The position numbers and the translations under genes were made by a program. The notes beneath the pieces are model-generated. The model searched no databases. It saw nothing but the letters and a program-made list of their open reading frames with translations, and was not told the origin of the DNA. A DNA stretch of 64,000 bases from a virus. Of the stretch, positions 32,386 through 48,110 are shown one piece after another. Position 1 is the stretch's first letter, and each line of letters opens with the position of its first letter. The stretch is taken from IMG/VR virus record IMGVR_UViG_3300034102_001587, positions 1 through 64,000 of that record; one strand, given 5' to 3'.

Positions 32386-35300
32386 ATGGCGAGAATAAAA
32401 AAATACGCAGAAGTTTTAACTCAACCATTAACATCTTTTCAAACTTTTTTAGTTGATACGAATCCAAATTCAACTTATTTTAGAATAACTGAGTTTAAGG
32501 ATACGTTTACTGGTGGTAAAAATGGATTCCTAATAGAAGGGTCTCAACACCTTAAAGAATCAACTGAAATAAAGATTCAAATATTAGATGTAAATGGTGA
32601 CCCGATTTATTATGAGCCTGGCAATGGTGTGCCCGAATATTATGAAGGTGTATCAAAACTTGTAGCCGTTTATGTTTACGAAGATACTCCTATTGGTGAA
32701 GCAAAAATAACTGTTTTAGGGGAGTTAAAAACTTATTTAGATGAGGGTGGTGTAGTAAGGGATGTTCCTGATGAGTGGAAAAGTGTATATAATGTAAAAT
32801 GGGAAAAAACTTTTAAAGTTAATAAATTAATTTCTAATGAAGATAAGGTAAGATTTTATAGAAGACCGGAAGTAACAATAAATGAAATAGTTAAACCAAT
32901 ATTTTCAAACATCGTTAGGCAGGTCACCCAAACGGGTTTTATAAATGGTATTCCACAAATCCCAGCGGAAGGTGAAAGTGTGTCTGGTTATACATTACCA
33001 ACATCATATCTTTTAACAACCCTAAATGATTCATTTTGGACAGGTTCTGTTACAAACAATTATATCACACTCACAAATAAGGGTGTAAGTTTATTAGCGG
33101 ATGATGTTGTTAGTGATAGAGATTTAACAGTATCAACTCCATATAATGAAAATGGTATTGTAAAAACATTAATAGCAGAACCTTATTCTGTAACATTTAA
33201 TTACATTGAAGGTAATGATAATTTAAAAACAGCATTAACTGGTTCATTCGCTAAAATTAATATAACCGATTTAACAACATTTGTAGGAGATTGTGCAAGA
33301 GTAAAAATATATAGAAGGTCACAATCAGATTTATCGGATTATCAATTTGTACAAGAAATACAATTAGAATCAAATGAATTACTTAAAGATTTAGAATCAA
33401 ATTCAAAAAATGAAGAATATTACGGTAGTTTTGACCAATTTAATTATAAAAATTATTGGATAACTTCTTCAAATAATTTAGTAACATCATTTAATCAAAA
33501 TTTCTTATATAACTCTGTTAAGTTAAACAGTTTAATTTCTGGAGAAAGGTTTGCAACAACAAAATCTTTAGATGTAAGAGAAAATACTGAATATACTCTT
33601 ACTTTTAATACTAGAAAAGATGCGGTAGGAAGTGCTAACCATTATATAAAAGCATATTTGAGCGGTTCTAGACTAAGTACATACAATAACGTAACTAGTA
33701 CAATTCAAATTGAGCAGCCAATCGTAACGATAACTTCTGATAGTAGTGTGTTACAAAAATCAAATGTAGTAGCTAACTTTAAAGCAGAAGATATTAATAA
33801 TACTAGATTATATTTTGAAACTGAGGGTAGTGATTGGTATATATCCGATGTTAGTTTAAGAGCATCTCAAGAAACATCTTTTAGTCCTGATGAAATAACA
33901 TTCATACAACCAATACCAAGGACTTTACCTAGAGAAACATTTGATTTTAGGTTTCAATTTTACGATATAAATAACAATTATATCCCTGTTTTGGTAGAAG
34001 AAACAAAAACATTTGATGGCGGTAATTTAAATGTAATTAATAAAGATTTACAATTAGTACCATCATCGCTTTATTTTCAATTTGATTCTGGTTCTGGTAA
34101 TGGCAACCCGTTACCACCAACAACAGTTTATATTGATGTAATTAAAAACTATCTAACGGGTTCGGTAAATTTTACATCACGTTCTTTTGATTTTGCAAAT
34201 AACGAATTGTTCAATACCGATTATGTTGGAGTTGGTTCACAATATCCAGGTTTATTATTGGATAGGAATTTGGATACAGTAAGATTAACCGTAGAAAACT
34301 TTACAGGTTCCAGAGCAGATAAATTAGTTCAATATATAGAATTTACTGGTGAATGTGAAGGTGTAACTGATTCAATTATTATTACAAGAGTTTTAGATGG
34401 TAAGGGTGGAGTTAATCATTTCATTAGACCTTATAGAGGAACTCAAATTAGAAATAGTAGTACTGCATCTTTAGAAATTCAAGCGGTAAGAATTGATGGT
34501 ATTAATGAAATTAATCTTTATAGTGGTGCTCAAGATGGTTGGGGAAATATACAACTACACGTTTTATCAGCATCTCTTAATCCAGCAACTGAACCTGAAA
34601 AATTTATTCCTTTATCATTGGCATCATCAAGCAAATATATCAGAGGAATAATAACTGGTTCGTTGGGTTCTAAAGAAATTAACTATAATGCAGTATTTGA
34701 TAGAGATTCAATAGATTTTAGGAGAATTATTTATTTAATGCCATCATCATCTGCAGCAGCTTCACCGGCATATGCAGTATCTGGTTCGGTTTTAGCATCT
34801 ATTATTTTAGAAGATTTGCAAGATGGTTTGGATACACCAAGTATAGTATTTAATGCTGATACATTTGCTATAAATCCAAGAAATGAAATAAATTTTAGAC
34901 CATCATTTGCATTTGCTACGGCTTCATTTTTTGAAAGAGGAACAACCAACGCAATAACAGCATCGTTTAGGGTATTCCCTTCGATGTCAATTAATAAAGA
35001 TTATGTTCCTGAATATTGGTTTTATTATACAACACAAAGTGCAGATAAAACTATTTCCGTAATAGCAAGAGATGAAAATAAAAATGTAATTGATTCATTA
35101 CCACTAAATTCATATATAGGGCAATCTAATAAGCAAAGTAAAAATTTAACAATTACATTTACATATACTGAACCTTGGACTTCTGCATCTATAAGTTTAG
35201 ATAAAACATTCACTATTATACCAGAAGGTAAGCCGGGAGATGAAACAATTATTTTTGAAGTAACTCCTGCATTGGTATCTCTTAATGCAACAGCAGAAGG

Positions 35301-38300
35301 TTTTGTAAATAGTTATTCATCATCAGTAACACAAATAAGATTAAAACAAGGCTCTAGGTATCTTAATTTTACAGCAAGTAAAGGTGAAGGAACTTTCTTT
35401 ATTGTTTCAGGCAGTATAACTGGTTCTAATATTATACCTGGTAAAATTATAAACCCAATACCACCGGGCTTTAATGCAAATTACACAGGTTCTTTGTTTA
35501 TAGGCGCAGCTAGTGGTATGAACAATTTAAGTGGTAGTGTTACATATAATCTTGAAATACAACCATTTTATACATCATCAATTTATACGGGAAGTGTAGT
35601 TCAACAATTTACAAAAATATTAGATGGTACACCACAATTAGAAGTATCATTAACACCCGAATCCGTTGTTTTAAATGCTGATGAAAACGGAGTTGTATCA
35701 AATTATGCATCATCTAATACTACATTACGAATTAAAGAAGGAAATAAATATTTACTTTATAATTCTTGGTCTTATCAACCTGGTACATTCTATGTTGATA
35801 ATTTTGAACAAACTAATGTATTTACGGCATCATTAACAGCATCATTTAATGGTGATAGGGCATTAATAAGATTTCACAATTTTAATCAAGGACCAAGAAC
35901 AGGTAGTGTAACATATAATATAATTGCATATCCATATTCACTAGGACCTGGTCATCAATATACTTCATCGGTAATAAATAAAGTTCAAAACTTTACTAAA
36001 CTATTAGATGGCGCGGATTCAAGAGGAGTAACATTATCAGCAACTTCAAATTTTGTAAGTTTTGATAGTGATGGTGTTGTAGTATCACCAGCGGGAGATA
36101 TAGAATTAACGGCAACAGTTACCAACTTTACCGGTTCAGCTTATTATCAATTTTTAAAAGATAATGTAGCATATACACCAATACAAGCATCAAACATAGC
36201 AACAATAGCTTCTGGTGACTCTGTTGCACCAGGCGAAACCGCACTATGGGTAGTACAAGTTAGAGATGGTAACATAAGTTCAACACAACCAATTACAGCA
36301 CAAGCATCATTAACACTTACAGGTTTACAACAAGGTGTTCCATCATATAACGCAACTTTAACTAATGATAACGTTTCTATTATTTATAGAGTTTCTGGTG
36401 AAGTTGAATTGGGTGGAACTGGAACAACTATAAATGCAACAAAAGGAATAACACAATTAACTCATGCTAACCCATTTGGTCCACAAACTTTAGATATATT
36501 TTCAAATGAAATTGGTTCGTTGGGAGAATATCAAGTAACTATACATTCAAAATCAGCTTATTTAGGATTAGCTGGTGGGTTGGTATCTCAAAGTGTTTTA
36601 CCAATTGTTGCTGGTAGAGCTGTAATTGGTGATTTGGTATCTTGGACAACCGCTGATTCAAATCCAATTGGGTCTGTTGTTTATAGAATTGATTTTGAAA
36701 ATGGAAAGGGAGTAGCATTTAAAACCCAATCATTCTCTGTTCAATTTGAAGGTGAAACTGGACCTGGTATTGTAATGAGAGGTCAATATAGTGAATATGA
36801 AGATTATATTGGTTCGTATGAAACAGTAAATTATCGTAGAGATGCAATTATTTGGCCTGACCCATCTGGTAGTAATAATACAACTCACTATTTTGCAGCA
36901 CTAAGTGGAAGTGGGCCTACAACTTATGTAAACCCAACAACATCTGATTATTATGTTGGAGCAACACCACCGGGTGGATATGTATTAATTGGACATCAAT
37001 ACCCACCTGCTGTTGGTAATAGTAACGATTATTGGCAGTATTTGGGTGAGCAAGATTTCTTTGTAGCAGCTAAAATTGCTATATTTGAAGAATCTTATGT
37101 TAAGAATTCAATTAACGTAGGTACTTATAACAATACTTCTAAATTTGCTAATATAGTAATAGCAGGTGGTAGACCTGACCCATATATTTCAATTGGTCAG
37201 CATGGTACTGTAGGTACTGCGGGCACATCTGGTACAACATATAACCCATCAACTTCCGGCGCATCTGGTACATCTGGAACTGGTATTATTGGATTTAATA
37301 GACCTGGTATATTTTTAGGAATGTACGAAGATGGTGTCAATGGTACAACAGGAAGATTTTCAATTAAAGAATATGGTGGTAGTGGTAAGGGATTATTTTG
37401 GGATGGTGGTACTTTGACTATTGTTGGTTCAATAAAACAATCATCCCCTGGCGTAAACGAAGGACGTTTAATGGGAGCTTGGGCTGATGCAACTGTTTAC
37501 TACACAAACGATATTGTTACATATGGTGGAAATACATGGACAGCAAACTCTAACCACACATCTACAAATAATACAAATGTAGGAACAGGTTATCCTGGTT
37601 CCGGTCCTTGGACTATTGCACCAATAGCAGCTAAGTTACTTAGATTAGAAGCATCTGCTCAAGTATTTGTTGAAACAAAGAGTGGTTCGCTTTCTCCAAA
37701 TTATATTGAATTAACTTCAAACAAACAAAATATTTCCGCAACAACGAATTGGACTACAACACCATCCGTAACATTATTTGATTCTGCAACGGGTGGAAGT
37801 ACAACAACAAGCGGAAATATTGTTTATTTAAGAACGGGTTCTTTTGGTACAAATACTTTGGTTGAAATTAGTGCAACAGCGGATTCAATAACTGATACTG
37901 TTTCAATAGCAAGGGTTAAAGAAGGAAGTGATGCATTAACCGTAATAGTAACAAATGAATCTCATACTTTACCAGCAGCAAATGATGGAACTGTTTCATC
38001 TTATGCTGGAAGTGGTACTGATATATACATTTATGAAGGTGCAACTCAATTGGATTATGATGGGGTTGGTACTTCACCGGGTAAATGGGCAGTATCCTCA
38101 TCTGTTACCAATATTACAGCCGGATCTGTAACCGATGGTGGTAACTATGCAGTAGTTGGTAATCATTCCAATATGACAGCTGATTTGGCAAGTATTAATT
38201 ATACATTATCCGGTAAGAAAATAAATGGAGATTTGTTTTCTTTAAGTAGAGTTCAATCTTTTTCAAAATCCAAACAAGGAGCAGCGGGAGCAGCTGGTGA

Positions 38301-40500
38301 TACTGGACCTGGTGTGGTTTATAGGGGTGAATATAATGCAGCAACTGCATACATTTTTTCAGCAGGTGTTCGTAGAGATATTGTAAAATATAATAACGCA
38401 TATTATTTAACAAAACAAAATACAACGGGTAATCTTCCAACTAATACAACATATTGGGAATCTTTTGGTGCACAATTTAGTTCAGTAGCAACTGATATTT
38501 TACTTGCTCAAGACGCAACTATTACGAGAGCTTTAGTTATGGGTGTTGAGACAAGTGGAACGGGTAGTGGAATTATACGTTCTGCTACAGCAGCAACGTT
38601 TAATAGTGGTTCTGGATTTTATATGGATAGTAGTGGTAGAGTAAGATTTGGTAATCCAATTGGTAGCCAAATTAAATTTGAAGAAAATAATTTCTCTATT
38701 ACAGGTTCTATTTCAGCTACCGATGGTAGAATTGGAAATTGGATTATTGAATCACAAGCATTGGGTGGAAACTTACGAGATTCCGGTTCAAAACTTATTT
38801 TAAACCCTACTGTACCTGAACTTGGATTTTATTTAGCGGGTGAAAAAAAATTAAACATATCTCCTGTAAACTATTTGACAAATGTTGGTGGTTCAAACGT
38901 AAGTGTAAGTGATATACCAAATGGAAATGGTTCACCATATCCGGATTGGACAACACCAGCTGATGTATCGGCATTTGGAACATTTGCTACGCAATATGGG
39001 CCGTATTCATATGCAGATGTTTCTAATTTTGAAACTGCAACAAATTATTCAATACCTGCTGCAGGTACTTATGCACTAACTAATCTTTATACATTTAGTG
39101 TTTTACAAATTGATAATTTATCATCACAAACCATTTATGCAAACGCAAATAATCCAAATAATCCTGGAACGTATCCTGGGGAAAGTCAAAATGGATATGC
39201 AAGTCCTAAGTTTGTTGGCGCTGATGTGTATTTAGAAGGTGTCAACCAATCTACGGGTCAAATAGCTAGAGTTTGGATACAAAATGTATCATCTTATAGC
39301 GCAACCAGTGTTGATAATTGGGAGTGGAATGGTTCAAGTTGGATTTATAGTAATTATACAACACCGGGCGTTCATACCGGATACACAACCGGCGGATTTA
39401 CAGCAATTACTGATAGATTTATTACTTTCCCTTCTGCTGGAAATTACAAATTTAGATATTCAATTCAAATATCCGCAAGAGCTGGAAGTTCAGTATCTGT
39501 AGATAGTTTTGGTACAGAGTTACCTGAAGTATTTTATGGACATACTTCTGGTATTAATACTGCTGTAACTGATAATGGAATTGGTTATAATTCTAATAGT
39601 TTTACTATTATAATACCAACAAACATAGTAGAAGTTACAACTGGAGGTATTCAGATAGCAAATGATACATCAACGTTTGTTCAAATTCCACGTCTTTCTA
39701 CATCAGTTGGTTCGAGTGATATAATTTTTGAAGCAAAAGGAGCTCAATCTAAATTTTGGGCATTTGGTGCCGCTGGTGGTGCATTTTCGAACTATGCAAT
39801 AGATTCACGTGGAAGCCTTTATTTAGCAGGAAATATATTCATTTCTGGAAATGATGCAAGTCCGGGCTATGGAAGATTGGATTTAGCGTATAGACCAAAA
39901 TACGGAAGTATATATCAAGCGCATTTTATAGATGATGTACACCCCGCCGATACACGCTGGGGAACTGCTGGTGGACCACATAATGGAACTCAAGATATGG
40001 GTAGTAACTCGGGTACTGGAGTTTTTTGGGATGAAATATATGCCGATAATTTTAATAATTTATCTGATTTAAAATTAAAAGAAAATATTTACACTTCCGA
40101 TTTAGGTTTGGATTTTATTAAACAATTAAGACCGGTAAAATATAATTTCATATCAAGTACTAAAAAAAGACCGAGATATGGATTTATTGCACAAGAGGTA
40201 TTAACTGCTTTAGAATCGCTTGGAAAAACATCTGATGATTTTAAAGGATTGAATACGGGTTCTTCTTTTATCAAATCATTAGAAAGAGAATATAAAAGAC
40301 CTATTGAAGAAATTATAGCAAGTGGTTCTATAACAGGTTCTGATGGTACTCTTTACAATCAACAATGGTATGATGAAGAACAACAAAATGCTGGATGGTC
40401 TGTTACATACAATGAATTTATATCACCTATGGTAAAAGCAATACAAGAACTTTCACAAAAAGTTTCTAGTTTAGAAGCATTTATAAGTGGTTCTTTATAA
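32386..40500 (+). CDS. Giant tail fibre with carbohydrate-binding-like modules and S74 chaperone
   Basis: 2704 residues. The N-terminal ~200 residues probably attach to the baseplate. The middle carries repeated immunoglobulin-like modules, each closing with strings such as TRVLDGKGG, TKILDGTPQ, TKLLDGADS and SKSKQGAAG. Three segments of the form Y-x-x-x-D-I-V-x-Y (near residues 1470, 1700 and 1980) resemble chitin-binding-type modules. A GTSG-rich collagen-like stretch lies at about 1607-1634. The end (from about 2558) is an intramolecular chaperone of family S74: LSDLKLKENI with the Ser/Lys dyad, YGFIAQEV, and a terminal helical segment. It trimerises the fibre and then cleaves itself off. 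The glycosylation cassette follows directly, so the fibre is a likely substrate. Confidence 0.85.
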   Translation: MARIKKYAEVLTQPLTSFQTFLVDTNPNSTYFRITEFKDTFTGGKNGFLIEGSQHLKESTEIKIQILDVNGDPIYYEPGNGVPEYYEGVSKLVAVYVYEDTPIGEAKITVLGELKTYLDEGGVVRDVPDEWKSVYNVKWEKTFKVNKLISNEDKVRFYRRPEVTINEIVKPIFSNIVRQVTQTGFINGIPQIPAEGESVSGYTLPTSYLLTTLNDSFWTGSVTNNYITLTNKGVSLLADDVVSDRDLTVSTPYNENGIVKTLIAEPYSVTFNYIEGNDNLKTALTGSFAKINITDLTTFVGDCARVKIYRRSQSDLSDYQFVQEIQLESNELLKDLESNSKNEEYYGSFDQFNYKNYWITSSNNLVTSFNQNFLYNSVKLNSLISGERFATTKSLDVRENTEYTLTFNTRKDAVGSANHYIKAYLSGSRLSTYNNVTSTIQIEQPIVTITSDSSVLQKSNVVANFKAEDINNTRLYFETEGSDWYISDVSLRASQETSFSPDEITFIQPIPRTLPRETFDFRFQFYDINNNYIPVLVEETKTFDGGNLNVINKDLQLVPSSLYFQFDSGSGNGNPLPPTTVYIDVIKNYLTGSVNFTSRSFDFANNELFNTDYVGVGSQYPGLLLDRNLDTVRLTVENFTGSRADKLVQYIEFTGECEGVTDSIIITRVLDGKGGVNHFIRPYRGTQIRNSSTASLEIQAVRIDGINEINLYSGAQDGWGNIQLHVLSASLNPATEPEKFIPLSLASSSKYIRGIITGSLGSKEINYNAVFDRDSIDFRRIIYLMPSSSAAASPAYAVSGSVLASIILEDLQDGLDTPSIVFNADTFAINPRNEINFRPSFAFATASFFERGTTNAITASFRVFPSMSINKDYVPEYWFYYTTQSADKTISVIARDENKNVIDSLPLNSYIGQSNKQSKNLTITFTYTEPWTSASISLDKTFTIIPEGKPGDETIIFEVTPALVSLNATAEGFVNSYSSSVTQIRLKQGSRYLNFTASKGEGTFFIVSGSITGSNIIPGKIINPIPPGFNANYTGSLFIGAASGMNNLSGSVTYNLEIQPFYTSSIYTGSVVQQFTKILDGTPQLEVSLTPESVVLNADENGVVSNYASSNTTLRIKEGNKYLLYNSWSYQPGTFYVDNFEQTNVFTASLTASFNGDRALIRFHNFNQGPRTGSVTYNIIAYPYSLGPGHQYTSSVINKVQNFTKLLDGADSRGVTLSATSNFVSFDSDGVVVSPAGDIELTATVTNFTGSAYYQFLKDNVAYTPIQASNIATIASGDSVAPGETALWVVQVRDGNISSTQPITAQASLTLTGLQQGVPSYNATLTNDNVSIIYRVSGEVELGGTGTTINATKGITQLTHANPFGPQTLDIFSNEIGSLGEYQVTIHSKSAYLGLAGGLVSQSVLPIVAGRAVIGDLVSWTTADSNPIGSVVYRIDFENGKGVAFKTQSFSVQFEGETGPGIVMRGQYSEYEDYIGSYETVNYRRDAIIWPDPSGSNNTTHYFAALSGSGPTTYVNPTTSDYYVGATPPGGYVLIGHQYPPAVGNSNDYWQYLGEQDFFVAAKIAIFEESYVKNSINVGTYNNTSKFANIVIAGGRPDPYISIGQHGTVGTAGTSGTTYNPSTSGASGTSGTGIIGFNRPGIFLGMYEDGVNGTTGRFSIKEYGGSGKGLFWDGGTLTIVGSIKQSSPGVNEGRLMGAWADATVYYTNDIVTYGGNTWTANSNHTSTNNTNVGTGYPGSGPWTIAPIAAKLLRLEASAQVFVETKSGSLSPNYIELTSNKQNISATTNWTTTPSVTLFDSATGGSTTTSGNIVYLRTGSFGTNTLVEISATADSITDTVSIARVKEGSDALTVIVTNESHTLPAANDGTVSSYAGSGTDIYIYEGATQLDYDGVGTSPGKWAVSSSVTNITAGSVTDGGNYAVVGNHSNMTADLASINYTLSGKKINGDLFSLSRVQSFSKSKQGAAGAAGDTGPGVVYRGEYNAATAYIFSAGVRRDIVKYNNAYYLTKQNTTGNLPTNTTYWESFGAQFSSVATDILLAQDATITRALVMGVETSGTGSGIIRSATAATFNSGSGFYMDSSGRVRFGNPIGSQIKFEENNFSITGSISATDGRIGNWIIESQALGGNLRDSGSKLILNPTVPELGFYLAGEKKLNISPVNYLTNVGGSNVSVSDIPNGNGSPYPDWTTPADVSAFGTFATQYGPYSYADVSNFETATNYSIPAAGTYALTNLYTFSVLQIDNLSSQTIYANANNPNNPGTYPGESQNGYASPKFVGADVYLEGVNQSTGQIARVWIQNVSSYSATSVDNWEWNGSSWIYSNYTTPGVHTGYTTGGFTAITDRFITFPSAGNYKFRYSIQISARAGSSVSVDSFGTELPEVFYGHTSGINTAVTDNGIGYNSNSFTIIIPTNIVEVTTGGIQIANDTSTFVQIPRLSTSVGSSDIIFEAKGAQSKFWAFGAAGGAFSNYAIDSRGSLYLAGNIFISGNDASPGYGRLDLAYRPKYGSIYQAHFIDDVHPADTRWGTAGGPHNGTQDMGSNSGTGVFWDEIYADNFNNLSDLKLKENIYTSDLGLDFIKQLRPVKYNFISSTKKRPRYGFIAQEVLTALESLGKTSDDFKGLNTGSSFIKSLEREYKRPIEEIIASGSITGSDGTLYNQQWYDEEQQNAGWSVTYNEFISPMVKAIQELSQKVSSLEAFISGSL

Positions 40501-40528: not shown

Positions 40529-40786
40529 ATGGAGTTACAAACTGAAAAATTAGAAGAATATCAACTAATTAACTTAAAAAACCTTTCAACCAAAAAAACC
40601 GAACTTATATATAATATAGGGGAGTTGTATTTAGAATTATCAGAGCTTAAAAAAATCATATTGGGAGCGGAAACTGAATATAAGCAAGTTTCCGTTGAAT
40701 TGGATACTTTATTAAATGATTTGAATCAAAAATATCCAAATGGAGAAATAGACCTGAATGAAGGTAGTGTAACGTTTCAAAAATAA
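40529..40786 (+). CDS. Small coiled-coil protein, paralogue of the 44581-44985 product
   Basis: 85 residues of continuous coiled coil (LINLKNLSTKKTELIYNIGE, LYLELSELKKIILGAETEYK) ending NDLNQKYPNGEIDLNEGSVT. The ending matches DDLDDRYPGGRLNLMEGTI in the product of 44581-44985: YP-G/N-G-x-L/I-N/D-L-x-E-G. The two copies bracket the glycosylation genes. Function unknown; it may be a virion or chaperone component. Confidence 0.6.
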   Translation: MELQTEKLEEYQLINLKNLSTKKTELIYNIGELYLELSELKKIILGAETEYKQVSVELDTLLNDLNQKYPNGEIDLNEGSVTFQK

Positions 40787-40818
40787 TTTGGAAATTCCAA
40801 AAAAAAATCGTATATTTG
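40787..40818 (+). promoter_or_regulatory. Bacteroidetes-type promoter with palindromic element (glycosylation cassette)
   Basis: TTTG (40787-40790), 20 bases, TATATTTG (40811-40818). The palindrome TTTGGAA-A-TTCCAAA (40787-40801) sits between the boxes, as in the primase promoter. The ATG at 40829 lies 10 bases after the -7 box, so the transcript would have a leader of only about 7 bases. Confidence 0.8.
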
Positions 40819-40828
40819 TAAATAAGTT

Positions 40829-43009
40829 ATGAAAAATAGAAAAAAGTTACTTTATGTATGTCCACACCTTTCAACAGGCGGACAACCACAATATACATAT
40901 AAGCAAGTAAAGCATTTTTTAAATGATTTTAATATTGAAGTTGTTGAAATAAACAATAGTGGTGGTGATGCGTTTGTAGTTCAAAAAAATAGAATTAAAT
41001 CTTTAGCTATTGTACATACTTTAGGTGAGGATAAATCTAAAATACTTGATATAATTAAAGACTACAAACCTGATATAATTCATTTTCAAGAAATCCCACA
41101 ATTTGATTTATCAAATGAAATATTAGATAAAATATTTGATAACAAAAGAAAATATTTTATCGTAGCAACAACACATGGTTCATTTACAAATCCATTAGAT
41201 ATTACACATCATCCAGATAGATATGTTTTGGTATCTGAGTGGAGTAAACAAAAATTTGATGATGCTAATTTAGGAGTTGAAACTCAACTTTGGGAATATC
41301 CCATTGAAGAATATAATTTTGATAAAGAAGAAGCGCAAAAAAAATTAGGATTTGACCCAACTTGGAAGCATATTTTAAATGTTGGATTATTTTCACCGGG
41401 CAAAAATCAAAAAGAAATATTTTCAGTAGCAAGGCAATTGGAAAAATATAAAATTAAATTTCATTTTGTTGGAAACCAAGCTATGAACTTTGAAAATTAC
41501 TGGTTGCCACTAATGAAACATAAACCTGATAATTGTGTTATATGGGGAGAGCGAAATGATGTTGATACATTTTATGCAGCATCTGATTTGTTTTATTTTT
41601 CATCAATATTAGAGTTAAATCCATTATCGGTAAAGGAAGCTCTTTCTTACAAGCTCCCATGCTTATTTAGAAGATTGCATACTTTTTTGGATACATATGA
41701 TAACAATAATTTAGTAACATATATTGATGATGATACTAAAAAAACAAAACAATTATTACTTCAAAAATTAAAACCTGAATTTTACGAAATACCTGGTTGG
41801 TTTTCATATGAAAATTTATATGATAGAATGGTAGAAACTGCACCTTTTAATTCTACATTTGTTGAGGTTGGTTCTTGGTTTGGAAAATCTACAAATTATT
41901 TAGCAAAAAAAATTAGAGATTCTAAAAAGAATATTTCATTTACAACAATAGATACATTTAAAGGAACTGGAGATGAAGAATTACACATAGATATTGTAGG
42001 GTCTTTCAATGGAGATATATTTTATGAATTCGTTGATAACACAGTTATTTCAAATAATTATGAAGCGTTTAATACTATAAAAGATACATCAGAAAATGCT
42101 TCTAAACTATTTCAAAATAATTCTATTGATTATATAATGATTGATGGTGGGCATAGTAGAGATTTTGTATTAGGTGAGTTAGATAGATGGTATCATAAAG
42201 TAAAACCTGGTGGAATTATTAGTGGAGATGATTTTGGAGTTTTTAGTGGAGTAACAGATGCAGCTAATCACTTTTTTTATGGACAGATTCAAAAAGATTT
42301 TTTATCTTTTGTTCGTAAAAAACCACGTATTCAAATAAAACATATGTTGACAAGACCGGATGATATGCGTGAAAGAGTATCTATTCAATCTTTAAAACAA
42401 TTACGTCAATATGGAATTGATTATCAACCAATTGTTAATAAGGTTTATGAAGGGTTACCGCCGGCAGAACATTGTAGAAGACCTGAGCATTTAAGTAAAG
42501 ATAATAAACCTGGTGAATTATATCCTGGTGCTGGTTTGGGTTGGATAACTGGTAGACATTATGGTTGTTATTTAGCACATAGAAACGCTATAGAAACAAT
42601 AGATGATACGAATTACGATTATACTTTAATATTTGAAGCCGATGCATTTATTTACACAGGGTTAGAAGAATTTGTAAACATAGTTCATAAAGCCTGTTTT
42701 ATTTCAGAAAGAGATGATGTATATTTTATAGGATTGGCAGATAACCCATCACGAGAAAAATATAGAATTGATGATTTGTTTACAAAAACAGGACACAATC
42801 AAGACCTTGCACACGCTTATTTAATTCCAAATAGAAACAAAAGCTGGTGGATGGATAGAATAAAAGATTGTGAATGGGATGTGGGCGACCTTTGGTTTAA
42901 TCATATATTTTATCACCATCCAAAACCTAGATATACTACTAATAAAATGTACTCCAAACAAGCAGAAGGATATTCTTTATTGGATGAAACTATAAAAACT
43001 TGGGATTAA
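40829..43009 (+). CDS. Trifunctional GT4-like / methyltransferase / GT25-like glycan enzyme
   Basis: 726 residues. Residues 1-~325 resemble a GT4/GT-B glycosyltransferase: LYVCPHLSTGGQPQYTYK at the start, ILNVGLFSPGKNQKE (about 184), and SSILELNPLSVKEALSYKLP (about 258). Residues ~330-480 form a class I SAM-dependent methyltransferase (STFVEVGSWFGKSTNYLAKK, then DYIMIDGGHSRDFVLGELDR and PGGIISGDDFG). Residues ~500-726 resemble a GT25-type transferase (GWITGRHYGCYLAHRNAIE, YTLIFEADAFIYTGLEEF, with EAD where EDD is usual). All in one frame, driven by a host-type promoter. It probably builds and methylates a sugar decoration of virion proteins; acceptor and sugars are unknown. Confidence 0.75.
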   Translation: MKNRKKLLYVCPHLSTGGQPQYTYKQVKHFLNDFNIEVVEINNSGGDAFVVQKNRIKSLAIVHTLGEDKSKILDIIKDYKPDIIHFQEIPQFDLSNEILDKIFDNKRKYFIVATTHGSFTNPLDITHHPDRYVLVSEWSKQKFDDANLGVETQLWEYPIEEYNFDKEEAQKKLGFDPTWKHILNVGLFSPGKNQKEIFSVARQLEKYKIKFHFVGNQAMNFENYWLPLMKHKPDNCVIWGERNDVDTFYAASDLFYFSSILELNPLSVKEALSYKLPCLFRRLHTFLDTYDNNNLVTYIDDDTKKTKQLLLQKLKPEFYEIPGWFSYENLYDRMVETAPFNSTFVEVGSWFGKSTNYLAKKIRDSKKNISFTTIDTFKGTGDEELHIDIVGSFNGDIFYEFVDNTVISNNYEAFNTIKDTSENASKLFQNNSIDYIMIDGGHSRDFVLGELDRWYHKVKPGGIISGDDFGVFSGVTDAANHFFYGQIQKDFLSFVRKKPRIQIKHMLTRPDDMRERVSIQSLKQLRQYGIDYQPIVNKVYEGLPPAEHCRRPEHLSKDNKPGELYPGAGLGWITGRHYGCYLAHRNAIETIDDTNYDYTLIFEADAFIYTGLEEFVNIVHKACFISERDDVYFIGLADNPSREKYRIDDLFTKTGHNQDLAHAYLIPNRNKSWWMDRIKDCEWDVGDLWFNHIFYHHPKPRYTTNKMYSKQAEGYSLLDETIKTWD

Positions 43010-44157
43010 TGATTTACGATAATTTAAAAAAGAATCACAATAATATTGTTGAAATAAAAAACAAAGTATTAATTCATTTTGTTAAAGGACCTTTTGTTGA
43101 AATAAAAGGACCAAAAAAAGCAAAATATAAAATTAATTTTATTGATAATAATTCTGATAAAATTGTATTTTCTTCTGAAATAGAAAACAATATGTGGTCT
43201 AGATGTAGTATAGAATATTTTATTGATTGGCGTATAGAAATATATGAAAACGATAATCATTTCCATACACATTATTTTAATGCAGAAGAAAAAAGAGTTT
43301 ATATAGCATTAGATTCAAAAGCTCTTGGGGATTCTTTAGCTTGGTTTGCTTATGTAGAGGAATTCAGAAAAAAACATAAATGTAAAGTTGTTGTTTCAAC
43401 TTTTATGAATGATATGTTTGAAAATGGGTATCCACATATTGAATTCGTACAGCCGGGTACAAATGTTGAAAATTTATACGCTATGTATTGTGTTGGGTTA
43501 TTTTATAATGAAGATAATTCACATAACATTTTTAAAAATCCAAATGACCCAAAAAGTTCAACTTTACAAAAAATGTGTTCTGATATATTAGGATTAGAAT
43601 ATGAAGAAATTAAACCTAAAATAAAAGAAAGATACATAACAAAAGATTATAATTTAAAACAAGTTTGTATTGGTATGTTTGGTACTGCACAATCTAAGTT
43701 TTGGAATAATCCAACAGGTTGGCAAGAAGTTGTTGATTGGTTAAACGAAAGAGGGTATGTTGTTAGAATTATATCCAAAGAAGGTGATGATTATATGGGA
43801 AATAAAATTCCAAATGGAGTTATCAAACACCCCGATGGTCCAATTGAATTAGTTATGGATGAATTATTAAAATCAAAAGCATTTATTGGAATTGGTAGTG
43901 GGTTAAGTTGGTTAAGTTGGGCATTAGATGTACCTACAGTCTTAATTAGTGGTTTTTCTTATAAATGGGCAGAAATGAAAGATTGTGTTAGAATAGGTTC
44001 TCCGGAAGGGAAATGTGAAGGATGTTTCAATAGAATACGTTTAGATGCTGGTGATTGGAATTGGTGCCCAGACCACAAAGGTACTGAAAGACAATTTGAA
44101 TGTACTAAATTAATTACATCTGATATGGTAATTAAAGAATTAGAGAAATTCTTATAA
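43009..44157 (+). CDS. BAHT/TibC-like protein O-heptosyltransferase
   Basis: 382 residues from ATG at 43009, overlapping the upstream TAA by one base; a TTG nine bases earlier is possible. After a ~90-residue beta N-terminus comes YIALDSKALGDSLAWFAYVE, the start of the GT-B domain, then QVCIGMFGTAQSKFWNNPTG, VVDWLNERGYVVRIISKEGD and FIGIGSGLSWLSWALDVPTV, typical of GT9-like heptosyltransferases. Near the end, Cys336-x2-Cys339-x13-Cys353-x11-Cys365 forms the four-cysteine metal finger known from autotransporter heptosyltransferases (TibC/AAH family, iron-binding). These attach heptose from ADP-heptose to Ser in beta-helical proteins. The next gene can supply the sugar nucleotide. Confidence 0.75.
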   Translation: MIYDNLKKNHNNIVEIKNKVLIHFVKGPFVEIKGPKKAKYKINFIDNNSDKIVFSSEIENNMWSRCSIEYFIDWRIEIYENDNHFHTHYFNAEEKRVYIALDSKALGDSLAWFAYVEEFRKKHKCKVVVSTFMNDMFENGYPHIEFVQPGTNVENLYAMYCVGLFYNEDNSHNIFKNPNDPKSSTLQKMCSDILGLEYEEIKPKIKERYITKDYNLKQVCIGMFGTAQSKFWNNPTGWQEVVDWLNERGYVVRIISKEGDDYMGNKIPNGVIKHPDGPIELVMDELLKSKAFIGIGSGLSWLSWALDVPTVLISGFSYKWAEMKDCVRIGSPEGKCEGCFNRIRLDAGDWNWCPDHKGTERQFECTKLITSDMVIKELEKFL

Positions 44158-44546
44158 TGAAAAAAATTTGGATAAATGGAACTTTTGATGTTTTGCACAT
44201 TGGCCACATCAGACTTATGTTACATGGTGCATCATTGGGCACCTTACGAATGGGGATTGATACGGATGAAAGAGTTCGTTCAAAAAAAGGAGTGGGAAGG
44301 CCGTTCAATACGTTGGCTGACCGTATGGAGTTTCTATCCGCTATCAATGGTGTTGACTCTGTGGTCTCTTTTGATTCTGATGATGAATTAATCGAAAGAA
44401 TAAAAGAATGGGGACCTGATATTATGGTAATTGGAAACGATTATAGTTATGAACAAATAATAGGCGCAGAATTTGTACCAAAAATTGAATATTTCAACAA
44501 AATACCAGGCTTTAGTACATCTAAGATTTTAAAAAATAAAAAGTAA
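44157..44546 (+). CDS. HldE/RfaE2-like sugar-phosphate nucleotidyltransferase
   Basis: 129 residues. The HxGH motif lies in NGTFDVLHIGHIRLM (His14, His17). RPFNTLADRMEFLSAINGVD, PDIMVIGNDYSYEQIIGAEF and GFSTSKIL follow, all closer to the adenylyltransferase domain of HldE than to glycerol-3-phosphate cytidylyltransferase. HldE makes ADP-heptose from heptose-1-phosphate; the kinase domain is absent, so the phage would depend on host heptose phosphate. One-base overlap with the heptosyltransferase gene supports a joint function. Confidence 0.78.
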   Translation: MKKIWINGTFDVLHIGHIRLMLHGASLGTLRMGIDTDERVRSKKGVGRPFNTLADRMEFLSAINGVDSVVSFDSDDELIERIKEWGPDIMVIGNDYSYEQIIGAEFVPKIEYFNKIPGFSTSKILKNKK

Positions 44547-44580: not shown

Positions 44581-44985
44581 ATGTCATTAGATAACATTCC
44601 TACAAAAACAACAATTGAAATCGAAACAGTAAAACTTGATGAAGAAACTTTAAATTCAGTTAAAAACCTTAACACTATGTTGGGTAATTATGTAACTGAT
44701 TTTGGAAATCTTTATTTAAGAAGAAAAGATTTAATGGAAGAATCGAGAAAACTTGATGAAACTGTTATAAGAATTGAAGAAGAATTCAAACAAAAAAATG
44801 ATGAATTCAAAAAAATGATGGATGATTTGGATGATAGGTATCCTGGAGGACGTTTGAACCTTATGGAAGGAACTATCCAATATCAACCTGGAACTCTTTC
44901 AAGAAAACAAATTGCAGAAATGCAAAAACAACAATTAGCTCCACAAGCACCATCTGAAGGTGAAGTAAAAATTGATGGAAATTAA
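44581..44985 (+). CDS. Coiled-coil protein, paralogue of the 40529-40786 product
   Basis: 134 residues. A coiled coil spans about 15-85, then DDLDDRYPGGRLNLMEGTIQ, matching the end of the 40529-40786 product, and a Gln/Pro-rich tail not present in that copy. It has its own late-type motif. Located just past the glycosylation genes. Function unknown. Confidence 0.6.
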   Translation: MSLDNIPTKTTIEIETVKLDEETLNSVKNLNTMLGNYVTDFGNLYLRRKDLMEESRKLDETVIRIEEEFKQKNDEFKKMMDDLDDRYPGGRLNLMEGTIQYQPGTLSRKQIAEMQKQQLAPQAPSEGEVKIDGN

Positions 44986-45025: not shown

Positions 45026-47374
45026 ATGAACAGATTAGCACAATTTTTAATAGAAAGCATATTAGGTGAAGCGGCTCAGATAGACAAAACAATAGTTGTC
45101 TATTCGGGCCGCTTTCAACCTTTTCATAAGGGTCACTACGCAACGTATGACCATTTGGTTAAGAAGTTTGGAAGGGATAATGTTTATGTAGGAACTTCCG
45201 ATGTAACCGATTCAAAGAAATCTCCATTCGGGTTTAAGGAAAAGAAAGTAATAATGACAAAGATGTTTGGTATTCCATCAAACAAAATAGTCAGTATTAA
45301 AAACCCATACGCTCCACAAGAAATACTCAATAAATTTGATTCAGATACTACTGCATTTATAACAGCAGTTGGTGAAAAAGATTCTTCACGTCTAAGTGGT
45401 AAATACTTCAAACCATATAAAGGTAAAGTAGATACTGGATATTTGGATAGGGGGTACGTTTATATAGCACCTGCTCAATCAAATCCTATAAGTGGAACTG
45501 ATGTTCGTTATTGGTTAAGTGCTGGTAGTGAAGCGGATAGAAAGAAAGGTTTTATGAAAGCATATCCAAAGTTTGATGAGCAAATATTCAAAATGATTAC
45601 TCTCAAACTTAAATCTCTTAAAGAATATATTAACGAAGAAATTAAATTAAATGTTAAGATTGGTGACCAAATCTTAATGGGTAAATTTAAAAACAAAAAA
45701 GTTTTTGTTAAATCTATCGGAAAAGATGAATGGGGAATGCCAACAATCAATGGTAAGAAAGCCGTAACATTTAGAATTCCTAAGAAAGATATTAAAGAAG
45801 GACTAGGTGGTGGTGCTGGTGTTGGATTATCTTTGACTGGTGGATATATTAATGGAGCACCAAATCCAAAAGATGTTAAGAAATTAAAATCTAAATTGGA
45901 TAAAGATGGTAGTGAGGAATACACTAAAGTAAAAGAAGATAAAATACCAGGTGGAAAAGCCGAAGGTATGACACTATCGGATATAGCTAAACACCATAAA
46001 GTTAGTCAGCAGACTTTAAAGAACGAATTTATAAAAGGATATGCAGTAGAAAGAGAGCATACAACCGATGTAAATGTTGCAAAAGAAATAGCATTAGACC
46101 ATTTATACGAAGACCCAAATTATTATAGTAAATTATCAAAGATTGAAACCCCACTAAGTGAAGGTTTACTTTTAGAAGGTGGAGCATATGGACATATGAA
46201 TCACCCATTTGACATTCAGATGAATCTTACATTTGGTGACCTTAAAAATATTGTAACTAAAGCTCTTAATGGTGATTTGGAATTAGCAAGAGAAAAAACT
46301 GATGGACAGGCATTGGCAATTAGTTGGGTAAATGGTAGATTGGTTGCCGCAAGAAATAAATCTCATACAAAAAATAAAGGTGAAGGTGCAATGACTATAG
46401 GGCAGGTTGCAAAACAATTTGCTGGTAGAGGTGCTCTTACAGATGCTTATACATTTGCTATGAATGACCTTTCAAAAGCAATAGCAGGATTAACTGAACC
46501 ACAACGTAAGAAGATATTTAAAGATGGTGCATGTTTTATGAATTTGGAAGTAATATATCCAAAGAATTCAAACGTAATACCATATGGACAAAACATTTTA
46601 GTATTTCACGGAACTTTTGAATATAATAAAGAAGGTGAAGTAATCGGAGAGAACCAACAGGCGGCATCTATCTTAGCTGGTATGATTAAGCAAGTTAATA
46701 AGCATGTACAAAATACATACACAATTCAGGGACCCCCAATACAATCATTACCAAAATCTCAAGAACTTTCTAAATTACAAGGAAAGTATATATCAATGGT
46801 TAATAAATTGCAAAACGAATTTAAACTTTCTGATTCAGCTGGAGTAGCAGATTACCATCAGGCTTGGTGGCAAAATTATGTTGAAAAGAATGCAAAAAAA
46901 TTAGACATAAATTCAAAAATAGGGTTGGTTAAAAGATGGGCTTTTGGTGATAAATCAATGCGTATAAATCAAATACAAGACCAGAAGATAAAAGCATGGG
47001 CGGATAAAACTGATAAGCAAGACCAGCAAAAGATTATGAAAGAAAACATAATGAAGTTTGAACAAATCTTTTTAGGTGTTGGTGCTGATGTATTATCATT
47101 TATGGAATCTGTACTTACCGCCAATCCTTCGGATGCAACCAAACAATTAAGAAAAGAATTGGGAACTGCAATTAAGCAAATAAAAGCTTCTGGAAATCCA
47201 CAACAAATTGATAAATTAAAAATTGAATTAAGCCGCTTAAATTCTTTAGGTGGATTTGATAAAATTGTTCCAAATGAGGGTATTGTTTTCGTTTATGGGG
47301 GAAATACCTATAAATTGACTGGAGCATTTGCACCATTAAATCAAATATTGGGTATCTTTAAGTACGGAAGATAA
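45026..47374 (+). CDS. Multidomain protein: NMNAT-like nucleotidyltransferase, DUF5661-like and ligase-like KxDG domain
   Basis: 782 residues. It begins MNRLAQFLIESILGE, a candidate capsid-targeting signal with LIE and LGE cleavage triplets. Residues ~22-190 are an NMN-adenylyltransferase-like domain (GRFQPFHKGH at 28-37, NPISGTDVRYW near 157). About 325-375 has VEREHTTDVNVAKEIALDHL then YEDPNYYSKL, like DUF5661. From ~395, LAREKTDGQALAISW (about 418-432) has the KxDG nucleotidyl-lysine motif of ATP-dependent ligases and capping enzymes, with FMNLEVIYP, VFHG and a C-terminal EGIVFVYGG...YKLTG as motifs III-V. It may act on NAD, RNA or nucleotides in early infection if packaged. Substrate unproven. 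Confidence 0.65.
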   Translation: MNRLAQFLIESILGEAAQIDKTIVVYSGRFQPFHKGHYATYDHLVKKFGRDNVYVGTSDVTDSKKSPFGFKEKKVIMTKMFGIPSNKIVSIKNPYAPQEILNKFDSDTTAFITAVGEKDSSRLSGKYFKPYKGKVDTGYLDRGYVYIAPAQSNPISGTDVRYWLSAGSEADRKKGFMKAYPKFDEQIFKMITLKLKSLKEYINEEIKLNVKIGDQILMGKFKNKKVFVKSIGKDEWGMPTINGKKAVTFRIPKKDIKEGLGGGAGVGLSLTGGYINGAPNPKDVKKLKSKLDKDGSEEYTKVKEDKIPGGKAEGMTLSDIAKHHKVSQQTLKNEFIKGYAVEREHTTDVNVAKEIALDHLYEDPNYYSKLSKIETPLSEGLLLEGGAYGHMNHPFDIQMNLTFGDLKNIVTKALNGDLELAREKTDGQALAISWVNGRLVAARNKSHTKNKGEGAMTIGQVAKQFAGRGALTDAYTFAMNDLSKAIAGLTEPQRKKIFKDGACFMNLEVIYPKNSNVIPYGQNILVFHGTFEYNKEGEVIGENQQAASILAGMIKQVNKHVQNTYTIQGPPIQSLPKSQELSKLQGKYISMVNKLQNEFKLSDSAGVADYHQAWWQNYVEKNAKKLDINSKIGLVKRWAFGDKSMRINQIQDQKIKAWADKTDKQDQQKIMKENIMKFEQIFLGVGADVLSFMESVLTANPSDATKQLRKELGTAIKQIKASGNPQQIDKLKIELSRLNSLGGFDKIVPNEGIVFVYGGNTYKLTGAFAPLNQILGIFKYGR

Positions 47375-47426: not shown

Positions 47427-48110
47427 ATGGCAAAGGAATTTCAAAAAAAGTACATGCATCCAACCCGCCGAAAGTTGGTAAATATGGTTTTAACAGGCGG
47501 TGATTATGAAAAAAATACACAAATATCATTCGCCGGGGCAGATAAACAAAATGTAAAACGTGAGGTTGGTGAAAGATGGACTGATGAAAACGGAAAGTCT
47601 TGGGAGCAACATGCTGCTGGTAAAGTAGAAGTATCCGAATTGGGTGATATAATGGCTGAGACACGAGCTTACCTAGCTGCATTAAATAGTTGCAAGGGTG
47701 ATGCTTGTAATACAATTAAATTAAGTAGAGCTGATAAAAAACTCATCTCAAAAACTGGATATTGTGCAACTTGTTTAGCAAAAAAAGAATTAACAATTAA
47801 ATTAGATGGGTTGTGGGAAGCATATGAAGATTATAAAATATACAATAATATGATTTCGTATGGTAAAGATGTAGTATCACAATTTCAACAAGCGTACAAT
47901 GATGCTAAGCAAGATTATGAAGTTGTGCAAGAAGATGGTACGCTTGAAAAGTGGAGTATGGAAAGAGATGTAAATGAATTAAAGGCAGAAATACTTGCTG
48001 ATATTACACGATTTGAAGAAGAAATACAACAGGCAAAAAAACTAAGAAATGAGGCTTGGGAAAAACTTAAAGATAAAAATTACGATTTAGTTAAACCACC
48101 AATTGATTAA
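47427..48110 (+). CDS. Four-cysteine protein upstream of terminase (candidate small terminase or packaging factor)
   Basis: 227 residues. Four cysteines at 89, 94, 113 and 116 (NSCKGDACN, GYCATCLAK) suggest a zinc site. The C-terminal half is a long helical/coiled-coil region (ERDVNELKAEILADITRFEE). Its stop overlaps the terminase start by one base. In T4 the small terminase gp16 precedes gp17, so position suggests a packaging role, but the sequence does not resemble gp16 clearly. Treat the assignment as inference. Confidence 0.5.
   Translation: MAKEFQKKYMHPTRRKLVNMVLTGGDYEKNTQISFAGADKQNVKREVGERWTDENGKSWEQHAAGKVEVSELGDIMAETRAYLAALNSCKGDACNTIKLSRADKKLISKTGYCATCLAKKELTIKLDGLWEAYEDYKIYNNMISYGKDVVSQFQQAYNDAKQDYEVVQEDGTLEKWSMERDVNELKAEILADITRFEEEIQQAKKLRNEAWEKLKDKNYDLVKPPID

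Follow-up and report, generated by a model that had tools for sequence, protein, structure and literature searches.

We analysed a stretch of 64,000 nucleotides of viral DNA (hereafter the window), which comprises positions 1 to 64,000 of the 136,291-base record IMGVR_UViG_3300034102_001587; larger coordinates refer to the same record. Profile matches to the portal protein gp20 (E 4e-69) and the capsid protein gp23 (E 2e-76) identify a T4-like phage. Three open reading frames (ORFs), all confirmed on the + strand, lie between the gene of a 2704-amino-acid fibre and the terminase gene. These three genes probably constitute an operon with which the phage would O-glycosylate its own tail fibres, their products acting in the order ORF3, ORF2, ORF1. 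The locus comprises the following features:

40787 to 40818, + strand: Bacteroidota-type promoter TTTG-N20-TATATTTG, sequence TTTGGAAATTCCAAAAAAAAATCGTATATTTG, directly 5' of ORF1
40829 to 43009, + strand: ORF1, a 726-amino-acid fusion with a GT4-type region (about residues 1-300), a Methyltransf_24/sugar O-methyltransferase-like region (about 330-500) and a GT25-like region (about 530-726)
43009 to 44157, + strand: ORF2, a TibC-like protein O-heptosyltransferase of 382 amino acids counted from the ATG at 43009 (the mechanical ORF start is the TTG at 43000)
44157 to 44546, + strand: ORF3, an HldE domain-II-like nucleotidyltransferase (heptose-1-phosphate adenylyltransferase-like) of 129 amino acids

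The initial annotation had described three overlapping or abutting genes, and the ORFs are indeed real: the ORF1/ORF2 and ORF2/ORF3 junctions both read TAATG, so that stop and start codons share one base, and the same gene order is found in about 80 viral contigs, which rules out an origin of the cassette by chance or artefact. Because both junctions have this form, ORF2 most likely starts at the ATG at 43009 and not at the TTG at 43000; several ORF2 relatives start at the equivalent methionine. The consensus of Bacteroidota promoters is TTTG-N20-TATATTTG. Of 72 distinct loci, 55 have the full motif ahead of the ORF1 homologue and 66 have its -7 box there; the full motif was never found upstream of the homologues of ORF2, ORF3, the kinase described below, a 134-amino-acid downstream protein, the terminase or the portal, and it precedes the homologue of the gene at 47427 in 2 of 66 cases. 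Since the promoter is kept before ORF1 homologues and not before those of the other cassette and neighbouring genes, the cassette is predicted to be its own transcription unit, a single operon.

ORF2 matches the family TIGR04414 (hepto_Aah_TibC) with 291.7 bits against a cut-off of 200, and the TibC sequence in the PDB with an E-value of 5e-53; the match to Pfam TibC_1st is weak and under its cut-off. The AlphaFold model of ORF2 has a predicted local distance difference test score (pLDDT) of 91, and Foldseek aligns it to the TibC structure 4rap with a template modelling (TM) score of 0.85 (E 1e-35). The initial annotation had called ORF2 a TibC/BAHT-like enzyme (BAHT, bacterial autotransporter heptosyltransferase) with a C-x2-C-x13-C-x11-C finger, and had proposed a structural comparison with TibC; the profile match, the agreement of the folds and the retained catalytic residues bear this out. 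Numbered from the TTG at 43000, the finger is formed by C339, C342, C356 and C368, which align with C339, C342, C358 and C370 of TibC and are invariant in 203 homologues (123 viral and 80 cellular). The roles of the TibC residues, namely the catalytic base D110, T226, K230, W305 and the finger, were taken from PMC4358343. Their counterparts in ORF2 are D111, T229, K233 and W304, all invariant in the 123 viral copies; the catalytic Asp, the Lys and the Trp are invariant in all 203 homologues, and the Thr in the viral copies.

Enzymes of this family are characterised by dodecameric assembly and by heptose transfer from ADP-heptose to Ser. ORF2 shares with TibC of enterotoxigenic E. coli and AAH, the TIGR04414 enzymes described in PMC4358343 (eLife 2014), the fold with its GT-B core, the N-terminal beta-barrel, the catalytic Asp, the beta-phosphate-binding Thr and Lys, the Trp and the four-cysteine finger, but differs from them in being phage-borne and in belonging to a separate clade. 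The position of TibC R286, which contacts adenine and whose replacement by Ala abolishes activity (PMC4358343), is occupied by V285 in ORF2; Val is found there in 117 of the 123 viral copies, whereas 71 of the 80 cellular copies have Arg. This substitution leaves the donor sugar nucleotide unproven. The stereoselectivity position (Pro300/Ser294) is Gly in the viral enzyme. On account of these two positions the viral ORF2 is predicted to be a TibC-like but not a standard enzyme. It also differs from the BAHTs in its surroundings, since no autotransporter partner gene lies nearby, the neighbours being fibre and packaging genes, and since it shares an operon with the GT4/methyltransferase/GT25-like and HldE-like genes. 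As it has no such partner and its clade is linked to GTSG-type repeats, we describe ORF2 as an enzyme that works like a BAHT and do not class it as an autotransporter heptosyltransferase.

ORF2 relatives are encoded in at least 577 viral stretches, and in 4 GenBank phage records only. Among these four is Microcystis phage Mel-JY01, in which the enzyme is annotated as "methyltransferase FkbM" and fused within a 1226-amino-acid gene. In the phylogenetic tree the enzymes of phages, of two huge phages and of methanotrophs form one group with 100/100 support, apart from the autotransporter type; the placement of the long branches L087 and L097 inside this group is unsure. A recent pick-up from autotransporter-type BAHTs was rejected, as the two types are well separated on the tree and the 7 methanotroph-family genomes with the autotransporter type show no repeats. 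We also observed that LR756501.1 (W02, L086), a 735-kb uncultured phage, carries a TibC-like gene together with 1277 matches to the Gly-Ser/Thr-Ser array pattern, and that the contig CAIWBA010000291.1 (L092), labelled as a Bacteroidetes metagenome-assembled genome, has baseplate-like and fibre-like genes adjoining the enzyme gene and gives the impression of a phage that was binned with a bacterial genome.

A lead to the acceptor came from the closest bacterial relatives, Methylobacter luteus and a Methylomicrobium, in which a gene for a secreted GTSG/GTAG-repeat protein adjoins the enzyme gene. Arrays of the pattern G[TS][SA] were found near 9 of the 10 cellular loci of the phage-type clade, and near none of 70 autotransporter-type loci. 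Among 237 methanotroph-family genomes (8 with the phage-type enzyme, 7 with the autotransporter type), the genome-wide repeat pattern was present in 7/8 of the former and in 6/229 of all others (p 1.8e-9; this and the following association p-values are optimistic, because related sequences are not independent). With both idea-giving genomes dropped, the pattern remains in 5 of 6 phage-type genomes; it occurs in none of the 7 genomes with the autotransporter type. In 6 of the 7 pattern-positive genomes no more than about 1 kb separates the repeat gene from the enzyme gene, and the two remaining enzyme neighbours (G032 and G100) are likewise GTSG-type or Ser-rich secreted proteins, which makes 8/8 in all. 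Of 120 viral stretches chosen solely by GTSG-repeat DNA, 8 encode the enzyme, compared with none of 231 chosen by GAT or GPx repeats (p 1.6e-4). Among long viral records, arrays were detected in 16/27 with the enzyme and in 0/21 without it (p 6e-6), and one record chosen blindly as a control had arrays and was then found to encode the enzyme. Since four differently built tests agree, the phage-type enzyme clade is genetically linked to Gly-Ser/Thr-Ser repeats in phages and in bacteria. The expectation that phage fibres would be modified by analogy with beta-helical autotransporters is not supported, as this clade is separate from the autotransporter BAHTs and linked to repeats of another kind.

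Three fibres of this phage come into question as acceptors, and are listed here with a feature of the first:

32386 to 40500, + strand: 2704-amino-acid fibre with S74 chaperone, directly upstream of the cassette (Peptidase_S74 E 7e-11; PHROG tail fibre E 2e-8)
37204 to 37284 (approximate), + strand: GTSG-type island of this fibre, GTVGTAGTSGTTYNPSTSGASGTSGTG, residues 1607-1633; similar islands occur in the fibres of many relatives
record 74294 to 87913, outside the window: giant tail fibre 1, 4539 amino acids, with 849 residues in Gly-X-Y arrays, 524 of them Ser/Thr
record 90014 to 104167, outside the window: giant tail fibre 2, 4717 amino acids, with 594 residues in Gly-X-Y arrays, 362 of them Ser/Thr

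Both giant fibres match tail-fibre PHROGs and Pfam Collagen, and together hold 886 Ser/Thr in collagen-like arrays. The initial annotation had pointed to the upstream giant fibre and its GTSG loops. The fibre is present. Of the viral loci that extend far enough in the 5' direction, most have its homologue ahead of the cassette, and many of these fibres have a GTSG-type island; these observations would suit a scheme in which the same enzymes act mainly on Ser/Thr loops of the beta-structured shaft of the 2704-amino-acid fibre. We consider this unlikely, because the fibre in the window has a single island of about 27 residues, the fibres of relatives L009, L037 and L047 score low for such triplets, and the long arrays sit in other fibres. 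In addition, no NCBIfam family, those of strand-loop-strand repeats included, matched this fibre at E <= 1, and an autotransporter-type acceptor was rejected for it on this ground. The giant fibres thus appear to be the better candidate acceptors, with the upstream fibre as a possible secondary one.

For the sugar, the best evidence for heptose is that two separate neighbouring genes each match one half of HldE. The first is ORF3, whose best family is rfaE_dom_II (TIGR02199) with 90.4 bits, under the equivalog cut-off of 181.5, and which matches PHROG 7878 "HldE" at E 1e-32; these matches agree with its earlier description as an HldE-like nucleotidyltransferase and place it closest to the adenylyltransferase half. 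A TagD-type glycerol-phosphate cytidylyltransferase was rejected, since that family scores 51.5 bits, 39 bits worse. With the heptose-1-phosphate adenylyltransferases of the HldE (RfaE) domain II/HldC type ORF3 shares the GTFDVLHIGH motif and the best profile, but it is a stand-alone protein of 129 amino acids, scores well under the equivalog cut-off and belongs to a phage in which no such kinase was found. The second gene is found in relatives, and encodes an HldE domain-I-like kinase of about 248 amino acids whose best family is TIGR02198 (87 bits). Of the 68 viral loci with ORF3, 51 have this gene after it, and no locus has it without ORF3; the kinase gene lies directly 3' of the ORF3 homologue, for example, at L006:6202-6948 and L010:3817-4569, and 26 further loci in the first set share this arrangement. 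ORF3 itself is present in 68 of the 125 viral loci that hold ORF2; because about half lack it, it would appear to be dispensable, or the host would supply the sugar nucleotide.

The suggestion that the cassette makes ADP-heptose could hold only for the last step. Family searches found no GmhA, PfkB kinase or HldD in the 136-kb record, which excludes a complete phage pathway, and the cassette alone cannot make ADP-heptose, so that the earlier steps would come from the host. The lack of HldD agrees with D,D-heptose as the donated sugar, which is also the one that TibC uses. A sugar nucleotide other than ADP-heptose, with the acceptor still a virion protein, is what the Val at the R286 position and the score of ORF3 under the equivalog cut-off would favour; as the equivalents of T226, K230 and W305 are retained and ORF3 and the relatives' kinase are nearest to the two HldE halves, we regard such a donor as rather doubtful, and ADP-heptose as the preferred one.

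The fusion of GT4-like, methyltransferase and GT25-like regions proposed for ORF1 is solid in its first two parts, with matches to Glycos_transf_1 (GT4) at E 8e-13 (48.7 bits; Pfam cut-off 26.4) and Methyltransf_24 at E 1e-15 (58.8 bits; cut-off 26.3). In the window the GT25 match (PF01755) is weak, with E 0.016 and 15.5 bits, short of the cut-off of 24; it is better in relatives, 26 of 33 of which match, with a best E-value of 5.5e-5. The AlphaFold model of ORF1 has a pLDDT of 85.9, and Foldseek retrieves BshA (5d01, E 4e-11) and MeT1 (6g80, E 2e-8). As GT4, GT25 and methyltransferase domains also take part in the synthesis of lipopolysaccharide and capsule according to their family descriptions, the cassette might instead remodel one or other of these layers of the host surface during infection, for instance to block superinfection, like other phage glycosyltransferases. 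This is very improbable given that ORF2 comes from a family of protein-modifying enzymes and from a clade linked with repeat proteins, and that the cassette is surrounded by structural genes, with the fibre on one side and the terminase and portal genes on the other.

A virion O-glycosylation cassette, as first proposed, is therefore the best reading of the combination of a TibC-like enzyme, an HldE-half-like gene and a GT4/methyltransferase/GT25-like fusion. From the computed gene identities, operon structure and repeat linkage we infer the sugar, the acceptor residues, the extension of the sugar and the physiological role as follows. Host enzymes would make heptose-1-phosphate, part of this task being taken over by the phage kinase in relatives, and ORF3 would convert it into an activated sugar, most likely ADP-D-glycero-D-manno-heptose. 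ORF2, with its iron-finger-like four-cysteine motif, would work in the cytoplasm, attaching this sugar to Ser and perhaps to Thr (TibC modified Ser, not Thr). It would act on the Gly-(Ser/Thr)-Ser arrays, collagen-like but devoid of proline, in both giant fibres, and perhaps on the GTSG island in the fibre upstream. ORF1 would then extend the sugar through its GT4 and GT25-like regions and O-methylate it. The probable effect of the glycans would be to make the repeat shafts more stable or stiffer and to protect the virion as a shield.

More broadly, the TibC-type clade of large and T4-like phages and some methanotrophs may consist of O-heptosyltransferases dedicated to collagen-like Gly-(Ser/Thr)-Ser repeats that are free of proline, placing sugars by the hundreds on each fibre to give stable, stiff glycoprotein rods, a proposal for which we find the case evenly balanced. 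A proline-free Gly-Ser-Ser shaft would need stabilising help, and the glycan could provide it in the light of two precedents: a passage of PMC3368898, citing Bann 2000, states that glycosylated threonine stabilises collagen, and BclA of Bacillus, a bacterial collagen-like protein, is a glycoprotein (PMC8968730). BclA and mimivirus collagen (PMC8968730) have surface-located Gly-X-Y repeats bearing O-glycans, as is proposed here for the arrays; unlike them, this system would involve TibC-type enzymes, proline-free Gly-Ser/Thr-Ser triplets, phage tail fibres and likely heptose. In mycobacteriophages, too, phage glycosyltransferases have been suggested to act on virion proteins (PMC11256854), although in other phages and hosts and, for example, on the capsid, where here it would be the fibre.

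Several points weigh against these proposals. The known targets of BAHTs are beta-helix loops, not collagen-like repeats. In this genome some 30-60 kb separate the arrays from the cassette, and 11 of the 27 enzyme-bearing records have no array by the strict pattern, many of them being fragments. Two methanotroph genomes in the sample had themselves suggested the idea, and the dependence among related sequences, the Val at the R286 position and the loci lacking ORF3 count in the same direction.

If the dedicated enzyme exists, it would assign a function to the GTSG/GSSG arrays of many uncharacterised phage fibres, no role having been known for the Gly-Ser/Thr repeats of giant fibres. Protein O-heptosylation, described for bacterial autotransporter adhesins, would then also occur in viruses on an entirely different acceptor, and a route to stabilising a proline-free collagen-like shaft would be revealed. 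Moreover, E. coli BL21, in which TibC-type enzymes are already functional, would offer a direct test of the glycosylation of phage virions. A literature search, which did not extend to preprints or most subscription journals, found no paper that describes either TibC-like enzymes of phages or GTSG repeats serving as acceptors.

The host is probably a member of the Bacteroidota, because Shine-Dalgarno-like motifs are at background level (5 of 48 window genes; background 9%), upstream regions are A-rich, the closest cultured relative by terminase is a Flavobacterium phage (57%) and the promoter is of the Bacteroidota type. The cassette is bounded by two small genes:

40529 to 40786, + strand: 85-amino-acid protein at the upstream boundary, a paralogue of the 134-amino-acid protein
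44581 to 44985, + strand: 134-amino-acid protein at the downstream boundary

The two families cross-match at about 22-34% identity across loci, and nearly all relatives have the pair on either side of the cassette, as though a gene had been duplicated and the cassette lay between its two copies. Further downstream, positions 45026-47374 encode a 782-amino-acid protein that has a nucleotidylyltransferase domain at its N-terminus and also contains DUF5661; its length is very variable among relatives, from about 660 to 1150 amino acids. A second glycan-type cluster at 118201-125926 of the record comprises GT25 (E 2e-14), a NodU-type carbamoyltransferase (E 4e-60), two DUF6734 proteins and a 2-oxoglutarate-Fe(II) (2OG-Fe(II)) oxygenase, and may complete the glycan. 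Several relatives have, 5' of the cassette, tail-region proteins with (PAPTP)n repeats beside a prolyl-hydroxylase-like 2OG-Fe(II) oxygenase (L022:3896-7525), and in one relative a mucin-like (TTTTEAP)n protein followed by a 665-amino-acid radical SAM and SPASM protein is found in this position (L032:4287-7669).

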